Origin: Lachnospiraceae bacterium
GTDB lineage: Bacteria; Bacillota; Clostridia; Lachnospirales; Lachnospiraceae
NCBI GenBank assembly: GCA_017450065.1
Contig: JAFSYI010000083.1
Coordinates: 62,001 to 126,000, forward strand
Direction: 5' to 3'
DNA length: 64,000 nucleotides
Shown piece after piece: positions 10,223 to 64,000 of the stretch (the stretch's first letter is position 1; every line of letters begins with the position of its first letter). Under the pieces are notes generated by a model. That model did no database searches and was not told the origin of the DNA. It saw nothing but the letters and a program-made list of their open reading frames with translations. The position numbers and the translations under genes were made by a program.

Positions 10223-11479
10223 TTGAAGAAGAAAATACTGATCGTAGATGATTCTGCACTCATGAGAAGGGTTCTGTGTGATATAATAAATTCGGACAAC
10301 AGATTTGAGGTCGTCGAGTATGCCATTGACGGAGCGGACGGGTTCAAAAAAATATGTGCCAAGACTTACGATGCCGTTGTCCTGGACGTATACATGCCTA
10401 AGATGACAGGGCTTGAAATGCTTGAAGAGATGCAGAGAAGCAAGGTTTATGCCAATGTCCTGATGGCCAGTACGACAACGGGCGAGGGAGCGAAGGAAAC
10501 CATCAGGGCTCTCGACCTCGGCGCCGTGGATTTCATAAAAAAGCCGGAGAATGTCGCGGATGCAAGGCATGAGGAGTTCAAAAAGAGATTTCTCGATCTG
10601 CTTGATGTGGTAACAATGGCAAACAAAAACTACATGGCTAGAGCGGGAGCTCATTTTACACAGGATACGGCTCATAAAGGAACGACGTTCGTATCAAGAT
10701 ATGATGTGAACTTCCACACAGGCAGACCGGGTGCCGCAGCGGGATCACGTGCGGGTGATAGCGAGGCGGGTAAAACGGTCAAGCCGGCTGATGGAAGACC
10801 ATCATTATCAAGGTTCGGAACAGGCAGTACGAAGAGCAGTCTTACGACAGGCGGATGGACCGACATCCCGCCGGCATCCGAATCGCATCCCAGAGTTCCG
10901 GGCAGGAAGATAGTTGCCATAGCTTCGTCAACCGGAGGCCCCAAGGCACTGCAGGAGGTTATCCCAAGGCTTCCGGGAAATCTGAAGGCACCGGTTCTTC
11001 TGGTACAGCATATGCCCAGGGGCTTTACAGCATCACTTGCAAACCGTCTCAATGAACTGAGCGATGTGGAAGTGACCGAGGCAAAGGAAGGAGAAACCAT
11101 AGTAAGCGGTCATGTTTATATCGCTCCGGGAGGTGCTCATCTTAAAGCATCAAAGACGGCCGGGACCATGAAGCTCCATCTGACGGATGAACCGTCGAGA
11201 GAAGGTGTGAAGCCATGTGCCAATTATATGTATGAGTCTTTGGCCGGATGCGGATACGACGAAGTGGTATGTGTTGTCCTTACCGGAATGGGAGCTGACG
11301 GAACCGCCGGTATTGTTAATCTTAAGAAAAGTCAGAAGATTCATGTGATCGCACAGAATGAAGAAAGCTGTACCGTTTACGGGATGCCGCGAAGCATAGT
11401 TGAAGGTAAGCTTGCCGATGAGGTAGTTCCGCTTGCACAGGTTGCAGAACAAATTATTAAGAACGTGGGGGTATGTTAG
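10223..11479 (+). CDS. cheB: Chemotaxis protein-glutamate methylesterase CheB
   Basis: Removes methyl groups from, and deamidates, chemoreceptors. The receiver domain covers about residues 3-120 (D9-D10, phosphoacceptor D55, KKPEN lysine). A variable linker leads to the methylesterase domain from about residue 228. Its catalytic parts are visible: IASSTGGPKAL (Ser), VQHMPRGFTASLANRL (His) and VLTGMGADG (Asp). The start is TTG at 10223 behind GAGAAGGG. Three ATG-free bases separate it from the PilZ gene, and its end overlaps the cheA leader. Confidence 0.95.
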   Translation: MKKKILIVDDSALMRRVLCDIINSDNRFEVVEYAIDGADGFKKICAKTYDAVVLDVYMPKMTGLEMLEEMQRSKVYANVLMASTTTGEGAKETIRALDLGAVDFIKKPENVADARHEEFKKRFLDLLDVVTMANKNYMARAGAHFTQDTAHKGTTFVSRYDVNFHTGRPGAAAGSRAGDSEAGKTVKPADGRPSLSRFGTGSTKSSLTTGGWTDIPPASESHPRVPGRKIVAIASSTGGPKALQEVIPRLPGNLKAPVLLVQHMPRGFTASLANRLNELSDVEVTEAKEGETIVSGHVYIAPGGAHLKASKTAGTMKLHLTDEPSREGVKPCANYMYESLAGCGYDEVVCVVLTGMGADGTAGIVNLKKSQKIHVIAQNEESCTVYGMPRSIVEGKLADEVVPLAQVAEQIIKNVGVC

Positions 11480-58730: not shown

Positions 58731-59960
58731 ATGAAGATTTATGATGAACTTGTTGCCAGGGGACTCATTGCCCAGGTGACGGATGAAGAAGGAATAAAGA
58801 ATCTTATCGACAATGGCAAGGCTGTTTTCTATATAGGCTTTGACCCTACTGCGGACAGCCTGCATGTGGGACATTTTATGACACTCTGCCTTATGAAGAG
58901 ACTGCAGATGGCAGGTAATAAGCCAATCGCGCTTCTGGGTGGGGGTACAGGAATGATCGGTGATCCTTCGGGCAAGACAGATATGCGTAAGATGATGACC
59001 AGGGAAACGATCGCCCATAACATTGAGTGCTTCAAGAAGCAGATGAGCAGATTCATTGATTTCTCTGAGGACAAGGCGATTATGGTAAATAACGCCGACT
59101 GGCTTATGGATCTTAACTATGTTGATATGCTCCGTGAGGTCGGGCCCTATTTCTCCGTATCCAATATGCTTCGCGCCGAGTGTTATAAGCAGCGCATGGA
59201 CAGGGACGGAGGTCTTACGTTCCTTGAGTTCAACTATATGATAATGCAGAGTTATGATTTCCTTGAACTGTACAGGAAATATGGATGTAATCTGCAGTTC
59301 GGCGGTGACGACCAGTGGTCGAACATGCTGGGCGGACGTGAGCTTATCCGTAAGAAGCTTGGCAAGAATGACGCCGAGGCAATGACGATAACCCTTCTTC
59401 TTAACTCCGAAGGTAAGAAGATGGGCAAGACGGAGAAGGGTGCCGTATGGCTCGATCCCGAGAAAACCACACCTTATGATTTCTACCAGTACTGGAGAAA
59501 TGTGGCAGATGCGGACGTTCTTAAGTGCATCCGTATGCTGACCTTCCTGCCGCTTGAAGAGATCGACAGGATGGACAAATGGGAAGGAGCACAGCTTAAC
59601 GAGGCCAAAGAAATACTTGCATATGAACTTACAAAGCTTGTACACGGTGAGGATGAGGCTGTCAAGGCAAGGGACGCAGCACGAGCGATATTTACGTCAG
59701 GAGATTCTGCCGATATGCCCACTGTGGAGATCGGTGAAGCAGATCTTAAGGATGGTGCCATAGATATCCAGGCTGTACTCGTTAAAGCAGGCATGGCGAC
59801 ATCCAGGTCTGATGCAAGAAGAAGTGTTGAAGGCGGGGGAGTGACAGTTGACGGAGAGAAGGTTACGGATCTGTTTATGAGCTTTAAGCCTGAAGATATC
59901 GGAGATGGAAGGGTTTTAAAAAAGGGAAAGAAGACATTTAAGAAGATCATATACAAATAG
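58731..59960 (+). CDS. tyrS: Tyrosyl-tRNA synthetase
   Basis: Charges tRNA-Tyr. Class I signatures: [14 protein letters not shown] (HIGH-like, HVGH at 45-48) and [15 protein letters not shown] (KMSKS-like). A C-terminal S4 domain is present ([19 protein letters not shown]). Length is 409. GGGAGG precedes the ATG. No T-box leader was found. A STAS-phosphotransferase fusion gene starts ten bases downstream, so tyrS probably leads a longer transcript. Confidence 0.97.
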
Positions 59961-59970
59961 GGAGAACGGA

Positions 59971-61074
59971 ATGAAGAGTGAATACAGGGACGGAGCATAT
60001 ACATTCTTTCTCGAGGGAAGGATCGATTCTTCAAACGTCGATCTTATGGAGACAGAGATAAGGGATAAAAGCATACTTTTTGACGATATGGACCTTGCCT
60101 TTGACATGGAGGGACTTGAATATATTTCAAGTGCCGGCTTAAGAGTGCTGCTCAAGGTAAGAAAAGCGGCAAAAAAAACGATAAGGATAACAAATGTATC
60201 GGATGAGATATTTGATATCTTTGATGTTACCGGCTTCGGTGATATGTTTGAAATAGAACGTAAGATGCGTACCATATCACTTAGGGGATGCAAAAAAATA
60301 AGCTCTGCCCTGAACGGAGAGATCTTTCAGCTTTCGGAAGATGAGATGATCAAGGTCTACGGGAAAAATGTGTCCATGAACGAAGTGAAAAGCGAGAGAA
60401 AACGTGCACAGACTGCTCTGATATACGGGATTCCCACGCTGATCCCTTATGATGTGGTCAGGTGTGATGAGGGATTCGGACTGATCTATGAGAAAGCCGA
60501 GATGACTTCACTGGCATACATATTAAGCCGTAATACTGATAAGACCGAGACCTGTGCGAAGATGCTCGGGAAGCTTATGAGTGAGCTGCACAGTACAGAG
60601 ATCCCTAAAGGCAGGCTTCCGGATATCAAGGACCGTTACAGAGAATGGATAGCGGAGCTGAATGACCCGGATGACAGCAAGGTGGCTGTATTTTCCAAAC
60701 TGATCGATTCCATAGCCGACAGCAATACATATGTTCACGGAGATATCAATCTGAACAGTGTGATGATACATAAGGATGAGCTTATACTCCTGGATATGGC
60801 CGGAAGTGCAACAGGACATGCGATCTTCGATCTGCAGGCCCTGTTTGCATCTCTTGTTGCCATAGAGAAGAGGACAGAGGGATACTGCAGAAAGAATTAC
60901 GGTCTGTCCGCCAAGGTATGCGAAAATTTCTGGAACATATTTTTCGATACATATATGAAACACAGGCAACAGGAGATCAGATCAATGAATGAGCTTCTGG
61001 CAAAGTATTTTGTATTAAAGGAAAATATTCTAAATAAGCTTGCAATAAAGAACCGTTTTGAGAACCGGGCATAG
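59971..61074 (+). CDS. STAS domain fused to APH-like phosphotransferase
   Basis: Residues about 1-100 are a STAS (anti-sigma-antagonist) domain: YTFFLEGRIDSSNVD and the phosphoserine-type loop YISSAGLRVLL (S53/S54). Residues about 105-340 resemble the aminoglycoside/choline-kinase fold: VHGDINLNSVMI with H256 and D258, and LLDMAGSATGHAIFDL with D275. The layout matches proteins grouped as TIGR02172. The metal-binding Asn of HGDxxxxN is Ser263 here. Function is unknown; phosphorylation of a small molecule or protein in a switching pathway is an inference. GGGAG precedes the ATG. Confidence 0.82.
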   Translation: MKSEYRDGAYTFFLEGRIDSSNVDLMETEIRDKSILFDDMDLAFDMEGLEYISSAGLRVLLKVRKAAKKTIRITNVSDEIFDIFDVTGFGDMFEIERKMRTISLRGCKKISSALNGEIFQLSEDEMIKVYGKNVSMNEVKSERKRAQTALIYGIPTLIPYDVVRCDEGFGLIYEKAEMTSLAYILSRNTDKTETCAKMLGKLMSELHSTEIPKGRLPDIKDRYREWIAELNDPDDSKVAVFSKLIDSIADSNTYVHGDINLNSVMIHKDELILLDMAGSATGHAIFDLQALFASLVAIEKRTEGYCRKNYGLSAKVCENFWNIFFDTYMKHRQQEIRSMNELLAKYFVLKENILNKLAIKNRFENRA

Positions 61075-61097
61075 GATGACAGAAAAAGAGGTGTCGT

Positions 61098-61886
61098 ATG
61101 AGAGGAGAATTACCAGGTAAACAGATAGAGATCAAGCCAACGGCAAGATCCGGTGTGCAGCTGTTCGATGAAACAGAGCTGCTTTATGACAAACGTCATA
61201 CCTGTCCGGTATGCAGAAGGGATTTTATGGTCAAAACCTTAAGGAACGGGAAGCTGAGGCCTGACAAGCTTGATATGGATATGCGGCAGCAGTATTTAAA
61301 CATAGATCCGGTAAAATACCGTATTATAGAATGTCCTGTGTGCGGATATGCCGATATGGATATAACCTTTGAAAAGATAAACCAGAGGGAAATAGATGCG
61401 CTTAAGAGTAAATGCATTAAGCTGTATAATTCCGTTCCGGTCACGGAAGGGGTAAGAGAATATGATATAGCGTACAGATATTACAAATCAGCCATAAGAT
61501 GCGATCTTATCCGCGGGGCTAAGAGCGGGAAAAGGGCTTATACTGCTCTCTATACCGCATGGCTTCTAAGGGGATGGAGGGAGAGTACGGTCGCTGCCGG
61601 AGATGAGATCCACCAGTCCGATCCCATGAGTGAAGCCGAGGAGCTTAAGCTTCTGAAATATGTTTACGGGAATTTCCAAGAGGCTGTGTTACATGAAGAG
61701 TTCCCCATAAACGGACTGCCGGAAGAGGTATTCGACATCATTATGGCGGCGATTGCCTATAAGCTTGATAATGGAGCCGAGGCAGGACAGTATATCTTAC
61801 GTGCGATACGTAATACCAACCTTAAAGGCGCACTGCGGCGTCATGCCGAGGATTTGCGGGATATGATCAAAGGTTCGGAGAAGTGA
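61098..61886 (+). CDS. DUF2225 zinc-ribbon protein
   Basis: A 262-residue soluble protein. Two CPVC knuckles (C36/C39 and C79/C82) in TCPVCRRDFM and ECPVCGYADMD define a DUF2225 zinc ribbon. The rest is helical, with repeat-like (TPR-type) helices (YRYYKSAIRCDLIRG, AYTALYTAWLLRGW). Function is unknown. The gene lies 23 bases after the STAS fusion and overlaps or nearly abuts the adenylating enzyme, so all three are likely expressed together. Confidence 0.82.
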   Translation: MRGELPGKQIEIKPTARSGVQLFDETELLYDKRHTCPVCRRDFMVKTLRNGKLRPDKLDMDMRQQYLNIDPVKYRIIECPVCGYADMDITFEKINQREIDALKSKCIKLYNSVPVTEGVREYDIAYRYYKSAIRCDLIRGAKSGKRAYTALYTAWLLRGWRESTVAAGDEIHQSDPMSEAEELKLLKYVYGNFQEAVLHEEFPINGLPEEVFDIIMAAIAYKLDNGAEAGQYILRAIRNTNLKGALRRHAEDLRDMIKGSEK

Positions 61887-61891
61887 GAGAA

Positions 61892-63397
61892 ATGAAGACA
61901 AATATCCTTGAGTATCTGGAAGAGGCGGCAGGGAGACTGCCGGATAAATGTGCATATTTCGATGAGGAGATAGGCTACACTTATGGCCATATGATGTCTG
62001 AGGTAAGGTCGATAGGGACGAAGCTTATTAAAAAGCTTAATGCAAAATGCCGTCCGGTGCTTATCTATATGGAGAAATCTCCGGCTGCACTGGCGGCTTT
62101 CTGGGGTACCGTGGCAAGCAGGAACTTCTATGTTCCGCTTGATACCAACATGCCCGAAATGAGGATAAGGCTCATAGTGGAGAACCTTAAGCCCGCAGCG
62201 GTGATCACGGATATGGCGCACTATGATCTGGCAAGGAAGTTCTCCAATAATGTGTTTATTTTTGAGGAGATGACGGACACTCCCGTCGATGAGGAGCTGC
62301 TATGCAGGAGGATGTCATCGGCGATAGATACGGATCCGGTATATGTTCTTTATACATCCGGGTCTACGGGAGTACCCAAGGGTGTAGTTGTAAGCCACCG
62401 TTCGCTTATAGATTATGTGGAGCAGTTCTGCAATGAGATAGATATAAGAGAGGATGATGTGATAGCCAATCAGGCGCCGTTTTATTTTGACGCATCGCTT
62501 ATCGACATATACTGTACGCTCCGGGCAGGCGGTTCAATGGGTATAGTGCCTCTTGAATATTTCAGTATACCTCTGAAGCTTCTTGAATTTTTGCAGAAAT
62601 ACAATATAACAACAGTGCGATGGGTACCGTCTGCAATGAAGATGGTATCAACATTCAAGGGATTTAAATCCATACGTCCGGATAAGCTGCGTAAGGTCAT
62701 TTTCGGAGCGGAATCCATGCCGGCCAAGGTATATAATTACTGGAAGGATAATTATCCGGAAGCGGTCTTTGTCCAGATATACGGACCGACGGAGATAACC
62801 GGAGTATGCACCTATTATATTGTGGACAGGGATTACGGAGATGACGAAACAATCCCTATAGGAAAGGCATTCAGGAATACCGAGGTATTCCTGCTTGACG
62901 AGGATGACAAGCTTATAAGCCGGTCGGACATTACCGGAGAGATATGTGTAAAGGGTTCGTGCCTTGCCCTTGGTTATTATAACGCCAAGGAGAAGAGTGA
63001 TGAGGTCTTTGTCCAGAATCCGCTCAATCCGTATTACAGCGAAAAGATATACAGAACGGGGGATCTGGCAAAATACAATGAACGTAAGGAACTGGTATTT
63101 GTATCCCGTAAGGACTTCCAGATAAAGCATATGGGTCACAGGATCGAGCTTGGCGAAATCGAGACTGCCGTTATGGCTCTGCCGAATATGAAGAATGCCT
63201 GCTGTCTTTTTGATCAGGAGAAACAGAAGATAATCCTGTTCTACGAGACGGATGCTTATGACGATATTACCATAACGGAAGCACTTAAGAAGCGGCTTCA
63301 AAGATACATGCTTCCGAACGTATATCACAGGCTTGATGAACTGCCGATGCTTCATAACGGCAAGGTGGACAGGGTGAAGCTAAAGGAAATGATGTAA
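61892..63397 (+). CDS. DltA-like amino-acid adenylating enzyme
   Basis: Stand-alone AMP-forming ligase of about 500 residues. Motifs in order: A3 YTSGSTGVPKGVVVSH, A4 PFYFDASLIDIY, A5 QIYGPTEITG, A7 YRTGDLAKY, A8 GHRIELGEIE and the A10 lysine in HNGKVDR. The A4 Asp normally contacts the amino group of an amino acid. It is built like DltA (D-alanine activation) but no carrier protein or DltB gene is in view. ATG 61892 is preferred; GTG 61883, overlapping the DUF2225 stop, is also possible. Confidence 0.85.
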   Translation: MKTNILEYLEEAAGRLPDKCAYFDEEIGYTYGHMMSEVRSIGTKLIKKLNAKCRPVLIYMEKSPAALAAFWGTVASRNFYVPLDTNMPEMRIRLIVENLKPAAVITDMAHYDLARKFSNNVFIFEEMTDTPVDEELLCRRMSSAIDTDPVYVLYTSGSTGVPKGVVVSHRSLIDYVEQFCNEIDIREDDVIANQAPFYFDASLIDIYCTLRAGGSMGIVPLEYFSIPLKLLEFLQKYNITTVRWVPSAMKMVSTFKGFKSIRPDKLRKVIFGAESMPAKVYNYWKDNYPEAVFVQIYGPTEITGVCTYYIVDRDYGDDETIPIGKAFRNTEVFLLDEDDKLISRSDITGEICVKGSCLALGYYNAKEKSDEVFVQNPLNPYYSEKIYRTGDLAKYNERKELVFVSRKDFQIKHMGHRIELGEIETAVMALPNMKNACCLFDQEKQKIILFYETDAYDDITITEALKKRLQRYMLPNVYHRLDELPMLHNGKVDRVKLKEMM

Positions 63398-63454
63398 GGT
63401 GATATCCGGACAATAAAACGAATCAAAGAAATGAGAAGGAGTAAGGAGGTAATC

Positions 63455-64000
63455 ATGAAGGAAAGATACTTAAGGAAGCTGACAGCGATGCTCGCAGCGG
63501 CAACGATGGTCTCCGGGATGTTAACAGGCTGTGCCGGTATGGATGGCGTGAACATAAACATCAACGACCAGAACGTGTTTAAAGGCAGTGATGCGGCCGT
63601 GCAGGAGGAAGGGAGCGTATCGGGCGATGAAGCAGTCGCGGGAGACCGGATGGAATTCTGGACTGAGGATTCCGAAGCTGCTGCTTCGATCAGGGATTAT
63701 GTTGCGAAGGTTACGGATGAATCTTCGGATGCATTTATACCCGTTGAGGACAGGATAGCTGTATTTGATCTTGACGGTACTCTTATGGGAGAGCTGTATC
63801 CGTCTTACTTTGAATACATGATGTTCATCCACAGGGCTCTCGACGATGAAACATATGAAGCACCGGATGATATGAAGGTATTTGCGCAGGAGCTCAACGA
63901 TGCAGTGCATAAGAAGGGTGCGATGCCCGACGATCCTGAGCGTATGCATGCAAAGTATGCAGGTAAGGCATATGCCGGGATGACGCCCGATGAACTTAAG
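63455..64000 (+). CDS. HAD-family phosphatase lipoprotein, 3' end outside window
   Basis: AAGGAGGT at 63443-63450 precedes ATG 63455; the frame stays open to the last base (182 codons). A signal segment ends in the lipobox MLTGC (C26), so the product is a lipoprotein. A polar region follows, then HAD motif I VFDLDGTLMGE (D105, D107). The DxDGT form suggests a class B/C acid-phosphatase-like HAD enzyme on the cell surface. It lies 57 bases after the adenylating enzyme on the same strand and may belong to that cluster. Later motifs are beyond the edge. Confidence 0.82.
   Translation, partial: MKERYLRKLTAMLAAATMVSGMLTGCAGMDGVNININDQNVFKGSDAAVQEEGSVSGDEAVAGDRMEFWTEDSEAAASIRDYVAKVTDESSDAFIPVEDRIAVFDLDGTLMGELYPSYFEYMMFIHRALDDETYEAPDDMKVFAQELNDAVHKKGAMPDDPERMHAKYAGKAYAGMTPDELK

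Follow-up and report, generated by a model that had tools for sequence, protein, structure and literature searches.

What kind of system do the four uncommon genes belong to that follow tyrS in tight order at the end of the DNA analysed here? The window, as the whole stretch is called below, comprises 64,000 nucleotides from a Lachnospiraceae bacterium (assembly GCA_017450065.1, contig JAFSYI010000083.1, C52 below, positions 62001-126000), and the contig (206,561 bases) extends another 80 kb past it. A preliminary description had named the genes as a STAS-phosphotransferase fusion (STAS-APH), a DUF2225 protein, a stand-alone amino acid adenylase (AdA) and a HAD lipoprotein, and had suggested that together they form an envelope-modification or signalling pathway, in which STAS-APH might be a switch and DUF2225 a scaffold. 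Coordinates and profile matches agree with the genes, their order, spacing and families (Table 1). The sequence comparisons reported here make it reasonably probable that AdA belongs to a carrier-dependent MBOAT-SGNH cassette which would aminoacylate a surface polymer and has a dedicated cargo-making enzyme.

A recurring gene unit beginning with the adenylase

The region beyond position 64000 had been proposed as the place to look for an acyl carrier protein (ACP), an MBOAT or an SGNH protein, and all three were found there, downstream of AdA. AdA orthologues (at least 62% identity) were present in 31 of the 37 genomes of the genus, our own included, and the neighbourhoods of all 31 loci were compared. 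The recurring order was AdA-ACP-MBOAT-SGNH-(trpS)-KamA, the last being a KamA-family radical SAM enzyme. ACP, MBOAT and SGNH lay downstream of AdA wherever the contig continued, with accessory genes interposed in some loci, and tyrS was found directly upstream of AdA (in two loci, of inserts) in 20/31. The unit AdA-ACP-MBOAT-SGNH-KamA was found in this genus and in three others. The two lipoproteins, the inositol monophosphatase (IMPase) family protein and the STAS-APH and DUF2225 pair are insertions in this lineage.

The residues expected of a transfer machinery were highly conserved. Sixty-two open reading frames (ORFs) of at least 440 amino acids (aa) from 69 AdA loci served as the MBOAT set, a few of them being second MBOATs outside the cassette. 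Their C-terminus was exactly FxYxxF in 56 (FIYGAF in our protein); the remaining six retained the Tyr at position -4 (62/62), and both MBOAT His residues were kept in all 62. The carrier Ser was kept in 53 of 53 aligned sequences. In our SGNH protein Ser59, Asp286 and His290 were placed by alignment; the nucleophile position was Ser in all aligned genus sequences, and His290 and Asp286 were kept in 55/56 and 49/56 SGNH sequences, respectively. According to passages of PMC12148441, FxYxxF is an acyl-Tyr shuttle that is located on DltX in the Dlt pathway and fused to the MBOAT in other pathways, the latter being described there as without a comparable carrier protein. Here the ACP gene sits between AdA and MBOAT, which does not fit a carrier-free scheme with an acyl-CoA donor. 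The predicted cassette joins Dlt-type input (adenylase and carrier) to a hexapeptide fused to the MBOAT. The gene unit, with its five recurring members and the catalytic residues assigned to them by alignment, is well supported, and the cargo discussed below is putative.

The pocket, the putative aminomutase and the candidate cargo

The substrate pocket of AdA was read at nine lining positions placed by alignment. It was DAIW[IV]GIGV in 28 genus loci (DAIWIGIGV in ours) and DAVWIGNGV in three, which form one clade nested among the DAIW rows of the tree. KamA matched the glutamate 2,3-aminomutase model TIGR04368 with 603.2 bits, the best model by 175 bits (lysine model, 427.9). In the alignment it has Lys and Asn at two Asp sites of the lysine 2,3-aminomutase 2a5h, and the pattern holds in our own and related KamA sequences, including three homologues above the model cut-off; we take Lys and Asn at these sites to mark glutamate enzymes.

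The presence of KamA followed the pocket. Among the 69 AdA loci (stretches of at most about 21.6 kb), KamA was found in the same locus in 21/28 with a DAIW pocket, 0/3 with DAVW and 0/38 with other pockets. All seven DAIW loci without KamA end at a contig edge; in six of these genomes KamA lies on another contig beside MBOAT/SGNH and/or trpS (G017, trpS only), and no KamA was found in G008, which has a DAIW pocket. In total, 27 of the 28 genus genomes with the DAIW[IV]GIGV pocket have KamA, and in all 29 genus genomes with this KamA the gene is near SGNH, except in G017, where the contig ends past trpS. In G021 and G026, KamA accompanies cassette genes and AdA is absent at, or cut by, the contig end. 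Two genomes of the DAVW trio (G010 and G025, both 99% complete) lacked a KamA orthologue, and G005, G028, G029 and G027 (59% complete) had neither an AdA orthologue at the same identity limit nor KamA. In L075, L078, L091 and L268 the frames of SGNH and kamA share 1 or 4 bases.

Further support is provided by a search of 397 genomes of the family (our own and G025 among them; E limits 1e-190 for AdA and 1e-110 for KamA), which revealed close AdA orthologues in two other genera. It had been predicted beforehand that a DAIW pocket would be accompanied by this KamA and by FxYxxF. Both further genera (2/2) have DAIWIGIGV, a KamA with HPKQ directly after SGNH, and an MBOAT ending in FIYIQF or FIYLQF. 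KamA matches occurred in 14 of the 397 genomes, five at 64% identity or more and nine at 45-49%. All of the five (our own, G314, G346 and two genomes of a fourth genus) lie in a cassette; in the fourth genus the AdA pocket of G126 is DAIWIGIGI and the contig of G438 begins at ACP. In a sample of 392 genomes of the order, nine encode a glutamate 2,3-aminomutase that scores above the cut-off.

Two observations concern KamA and its surroundings. The KamA-less genomes G031 (70% complete) and G025 encode a KamA-like protein of 39-40% identity elsewhere, beside a STAS protein (L256:3461-4968; L257:4275-5747). In G013, kamA is followed after 15 bases by the gene of a protein that looks methyltransferase-like (by eye) and carries a STAS domain at its C-terminus (L070:5037-6278).

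In the proposed pathway, KamA, with glutamate as its most likely substrate, would move an amino group from C2 to C3 to give a beta-amino acid, perhaps beta-glutamate. AdA would adenylate this beta-amino acid and load it onto the ACP; the MBOAT would take the acyl group through the membrane and attach it to the Tyr of the FIYGAF at its own C-terminus, and the SGNH protein would accept it on Ser59 and esterify a surface glycopolymer. These chemical steps are all inferred, and so are the identity of the cargo as a beta-amino acid, the glycopolymer as acceptor and the regulation. A surface glycopolymer is the likely acceptor because polysaccharide genes adjoin some copies: the L086 copy is accompanied by a GT11 family gene, a DegT aminotransferase, a GT2 gene and an ABC transporter, the L095 copy by a UDP-sugar dehydrogenase and GT2, and the L081 copy by GT2; the gene family that includes the GT11-like one is present in five genus loci. 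A partly similar logic is found in the incednine starter pathway (IdnL4, IdnL1, ACP), which combines a proposed Glu 2,3-aminomutase with a stand-alone adenylase and an ACP (passages of PMC11284099). It differs in that IdnL3 decarboxylates beta-glutamate and feeds a polyketide synthase, whereas here the MBOAT-SGNH pair would receive the acyl group.

The fuller reading is that a surface glycopolymer bears an ester-linked beta-amino acid, in the simplest case beta-glutamate, made by a dedicated aminomutase, as one branch of a wider carrier-fed, fused-shuttle MBOAT-SGNH family in which amino acid, cargo-making enzyme and matching pocket differ from branch to branch. We put this forward tentatively, with doubt slightly outweighing belief. 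Several points weigh against the proposed pathway, and the strongest is chemical: the expected cargo is acidic and would carry a free carboxylate, yet none of the nine pocket positions is basic, and it is a sister clade that has Lys at the position of AdA Ile207. KamA is 47 bits under the TIGR04368 cut-off (650). The co-occurrence of KamA and pocket lies mostly within one genus; because the DAVW trio is a single clade, KamA loss and pocket change there count as one evolutionary event, and because the 38 loci with other pockets have no KamA, the link would be special to this branch. Three of the nine genomes with an aminomutase above the cut-off were inspected, and none showed a cassette gene within 5-6 kb around the aminomutase gene. 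Activity of IdnL4 itself was not seen in vitro, according to passages of PMC11284099. As to basic residues outside the nine positions, Arg246, beside Trp247, is present in 31/31 genus rows, the KamA-less trio included, and in the three further genera, and in 0/38 other rows; K253 was rejected as a cargo determinant, being basic in 31/31 genus rows and not in two of three further genera.

Two other cargo assignments have to be weighed. An alpha-amino acid could be the cargo, be it Gly, L- or D-Ala or a hydrophobic residue, with KamA acting later or on another substrate. This would agree with Asp203, which is kept as in alpha-amino acid adenylases, and with a hydrophobic pocket containing small residues. 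In beta-amino acid adenylases, however, a conserved Asp likewise makes contact with the amino group (passages of PMC11284099), and the linkage of KamA would be left unexplained. We regard an alpha-amino acid as an unlikely cargo, at perhaps one chance in four.

Somewhat less likely still is that the cassette performs plain D-alanylation in this lineage, with KamA as a mere neighbour making beta-glutamate, a compatible solute, as an osmolyte. The logic is that of Dlt, the only solved sequence relatives of the MBOAT are DltB proteins, and AdA matches DltA models, although below cut-off (TIGR01734: 291.1 bits, cut-off 559.85). The Dlt system (DltXABCD) likewise has a stand-alone adenylase, a carrier, an MBOAT, an SGNH-type partner and the FxYxxF acyl-Tyr shuttle (passages of PMC12148441). 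The cassette differs from it in the fusion of the motif to the MBOAT and in the linked aminomutase, and its adenylase, carrier and MBOAT all score under the curated Dlt cut-offs; our MBOAT reached 133.7 bits with the DltB equivalog TIGR04091 (cut-off 375), and TIGR01734 was above cut-off in 0/61 genomes. AdA has Gly275 at the position of Cys268 of Bacillus cereus DltA, the residue that selects the D-Ala enantiomer according to passages of PMC8972799. Trp247 aligns with a Ser of B. cereus DltA, as placed via the related L085 adenylase. DltX (PF12459) gave no match in our genome (88% complete) and matched in 2 of 14 control genomes. No DltD match was obtained with our SGNH protein; the sole PF04914 (DltD) match in the genome lies elsewhere and covers 80 positions with 23.4 bits, just above the 22.7-bit cut-off. 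Furthermore, KamA remains with the cassette across four genera and several settings, in some cases with overlapping frames. The model cut-offs, the pocket and the missing DltX match thus disfavour canonical Dlt, and the cassette is, as predicted from its proteins, a variant of the MBOAT-SGNH/Dlt kind.

The STAS-APH and DUF2225 pair and other inserted genes

Of the 37 genus genomes, only G000 and G032 have the pair between tyrS and AdA. STAS-APH orthologues (at least 58% identity) were present in 7/99 other genomes searched, eight with ours, and DUF2225 was the next gene in 8/8, while the other neighbours varied in that six of the eight pairs had different ones. G021 (by Pfam) and G036 (by eye) have a cyclic-nucleotide-binding protein there, G016 has a SpoIIE phosphatase and G008 has PlsY. 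STAS-APH and DUF2225 are an independent module, and in the present locus probably a regulatory add-on. That all four genes serve one signalling pathway is improbable: tight spacing speaks for it, as does the pair adjoining an MBOAT (Pfam) and an SGNH-like gene (by eye, without Pfam match) in G011 and a homologue of the C-terminal part of the HAD lipoprotein in G005, but the genus neighbourhoods rule it out as a conserved unit, the HAD lipoprotein being an accessory found in 5/31 AdA loci of the genus. Of the earlier proposal, the envelope-modification part stands for the adenylase, which lies in a cassette of that appearance; the conserved four-gene combination does not.

In STAS-APH, K128, E142, D258 and D275 were invariant in 20 sequences; we take them to be the Lys, Glu, catalytic Asp and metal Asp of APH kinases. 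All eight members of this clade have SSALNGE at what we take to be the Gly-rich nucleotide loop, which is not Gly-rich here, and Ser263, where 12/12 aligned paralogues have an Asn that is presumably metal-binding. STAS-APH may have little or no kinase activity and serve as a sensor. No SpoIIE phosphatase or RsbW-like ATPase was found among the neighbouring genes here; some STAS-APH paralogues are beside or fused to SpoIIE/RsbW-type domains. One paralogue is fused to an RsbW-like ATPase domain (L045:4590-6167), and near another lies a MATE-like transporter with a C-terminal ATPase-like stretch (L048:10394-12166, by eye).

In the DUF2225 protein, Cys 36, 39, 79 and 82 were invariant in 23 sequences. 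Most relatives have one copy; of 20 loci read, 10 have it next to a glnS-like gene (by eye). In all eight pair-bearing genomes it is a second DUF2225 besides another copy, and the other 29 genus genomes had a second match in four cases, two of them partial. The other copy in our genome (L221:7360-8229) precedes clpS/clpA-like genes (by eye). A DUF2225 fused to a cyclic-nucleotide-binding domain was seen at L237:7526-8656; in L035 (G021) a separate cyclic-nucleotide protein lies downstream of DUF2225, and an FkbH-like protein (L035:9010-10788) is found near this trio with STAS-APH. No function follows from the glnS-like neighbour and the one fusion. DUF2225 as a cassette part in other lineages was also rejected: the weak match in L112 is a MerR/methyltransferase-like ORF (by eye), and the copy in L099 is the only one of its genome, beside a glnS-like gene and five genes from the ACP. 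Among open-licence PMC papers none was found with TIGR02172, and the passages on DUF2225 consulted from one paper name no function for it.

As to the locus itself, STAS-APH starts 10 bases past the end of tyrS and is separated from DUF2225 by 23 bases. AdA starts at GTG 61883 (4-base overlap with DUF2225) or ATG 61892 (gap 5), and the HAD lipoprotein, which is cut by the window end, at ATG 63431 (gap 33) or ATG 63455 (gap 57). Profile matches were STAS PF01740 (1.9e-10) and, for the kinase part, APH PF01636 (20.6 bits, cut-off 23.2) and TIGR02172 (100.7 bits, cut-off 228.2); PF09986 (5.5e-36) for DUF2225; AMP-binding PF00501 (9.7e-67) and TIGR01733 (330 bits, cut-off 317.4) for AdA; and PF12710 (3.3e-7) for the complete HAD lipoprotein, whose part within the window had no Pfam match. 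ORFs were called mechanically (longest first, open ends allowed), so that the calls include wrong starts and initially left out some genes; tblastn recovered the ACP in L069, L094 and L096 and the SGNH in L086. Promoter and terminator scans gave counts close to those expected from shuffling (26 vs 29.9 and 10 vs 9.3). Among the genus loci read, the GH43-like lipoprotein and the IMPase occur inside the cassette only in G000 and G032. The MBOAT of G030 (L098:9504-10713) is split into two pieces in different frames and is cut by the contig end.

Related cassettes and known systems

The 38 outside loci had been chosen by AdA similarity, from relatives and from 27 of the best 80 matches listed in a scan; their pocket classes are clades, and the branches are not independent. 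A racemase was present in 9/18 DAKW[AGC] loci, in eight directly upstream of AdA, and the two tested against NCBIfam were of the aspartate/cysteate type. A pyridoxal phosphate (PLP)-decarboxylase-like enzyme was found in 4/6 DVKW and 4/4 IARW loci (8/10); two of the eight were tested and are related to lysA, with a TIGR03099 match under the cut-off. There was no cross-over between the racemase and PLP-decarboxylase-like pocket classes. The SGNH nucleophile was Cys (GDCE) in 16/16 SGNHs found in DAKW[AGC] cassettes, and Cys in 2/2 DVHW. The comparison of these branches suggests that each handles its own amino acid. A Paenibacillus plasmid record (17.5 kb read) has an AdA of 37.7% identity and an ACP, with no MBOAT, SGNH or KamA match by blastp in that stretch.

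Table 1. Features of the locus and of related cassettes. L002 is C52:121000-140900, and an L002 position plus 58999 gives the window position; G and L numbers denote genomes and loci.
Feature	Position	Strand	Basis
tyrS	58731..59960	+	ORF and related loci
STAS-APH fusion protein, 367 aa, inserted module gene 1	59971..61074	+	Pfam STAS, sub-threshold APH, orthologue neighbourhoods
DUF2225 protein, 262 aa, four Cys, inserted module gene 2	61098..61886	+	PF09986
AdA, stand-alone amino acid adenylase, 504 aa, first conserved-cassette gene	61883..63397	+	TIGR01733, pocket table
HAD lipoprotein, first 570 bases, accessory	63431..64000	+	ORF; PF12710 on whole protein
HAD lipoprotein, whole gene, 712 aa	L002:4432-6570	+	ORF
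Second lipoprotein-like ORF, 650 aa, weak GH43 match	L002:6567-8519	+	
ACP, 75 aa, Ser31	L002:8620-8847	+	
MBOAT, 549 aa; last six codons FIYGAF at 10483-10500	L002:8854-10503	+	
IMPase family protein	L002:10517-11290	+	
SGNH-type protein, 332 aa, Pfam match below cut-off	L002:11303-12301	+	
trpS	L002:12400-13539	+	
KamA-family radical SAM enzyme, 407 aa	L002:13559-14782	+	
6S RNA directly 3' of kamA	L002:14858-15038	+	48.6 bits, gathering 46.4
PLP-decarboxylase-like enzyme directly behind AdA or ACP	L099:9942-11174; also L118, L121, L131, L132, L135, L137, L139		
Cys-nucleophile SGNH genes	L083, L084, L103, L104, L112-L117, L123, L124, L126, L127, L129, L136		

Three further systems resemble the cassette in part. 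PatA/PatB MBOAT-SGNH O-acetylation also has the hexapeptide on the MBOAT C-terminus and a separate SGNH transferase (passages of PMC12148441), but its donor is acetyl-CoA, whereas the cassette here has a carrier and an adenylase. The AlmEFG system for glycine modification of lipopolysaccharide uses a Dlt-like adenylase and carrier for a different amino acid (passages of PMC3783018); it differs in that AlmG has an LPLAT domain and an MBOAT-SGNH pair is absent. The exosortase-A-associated ligase and PLP decarboxylase (TIGR03098, TIGR03099) are linked to the related cassettes by the sub-threshold TIGR03099 match of the PLP enzyme there; the cassette of this window has no such enzyme.

The cassette unites two designs that passages of PMC12148441 keep separate, one carrier-fed with DltX and the other CoA-fed with a fused motif. 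The match between pocket and cargo enzyme makes it direct both to predict substrates and to test them. D-Alanylation of teichoic acids sets surface charge and cationic-peptide tolerance in Gram-positive bacteria, and, judging from how related records are named, the bearers of the cassette are relatives of Clostridia from gut and rumen. If the proposed reading is true, they would have a system parallel to D-alanylation that uses another amino acid, genetically encoded, and surface aminoacylation would be more varied than the D-Ala and Gly cases.

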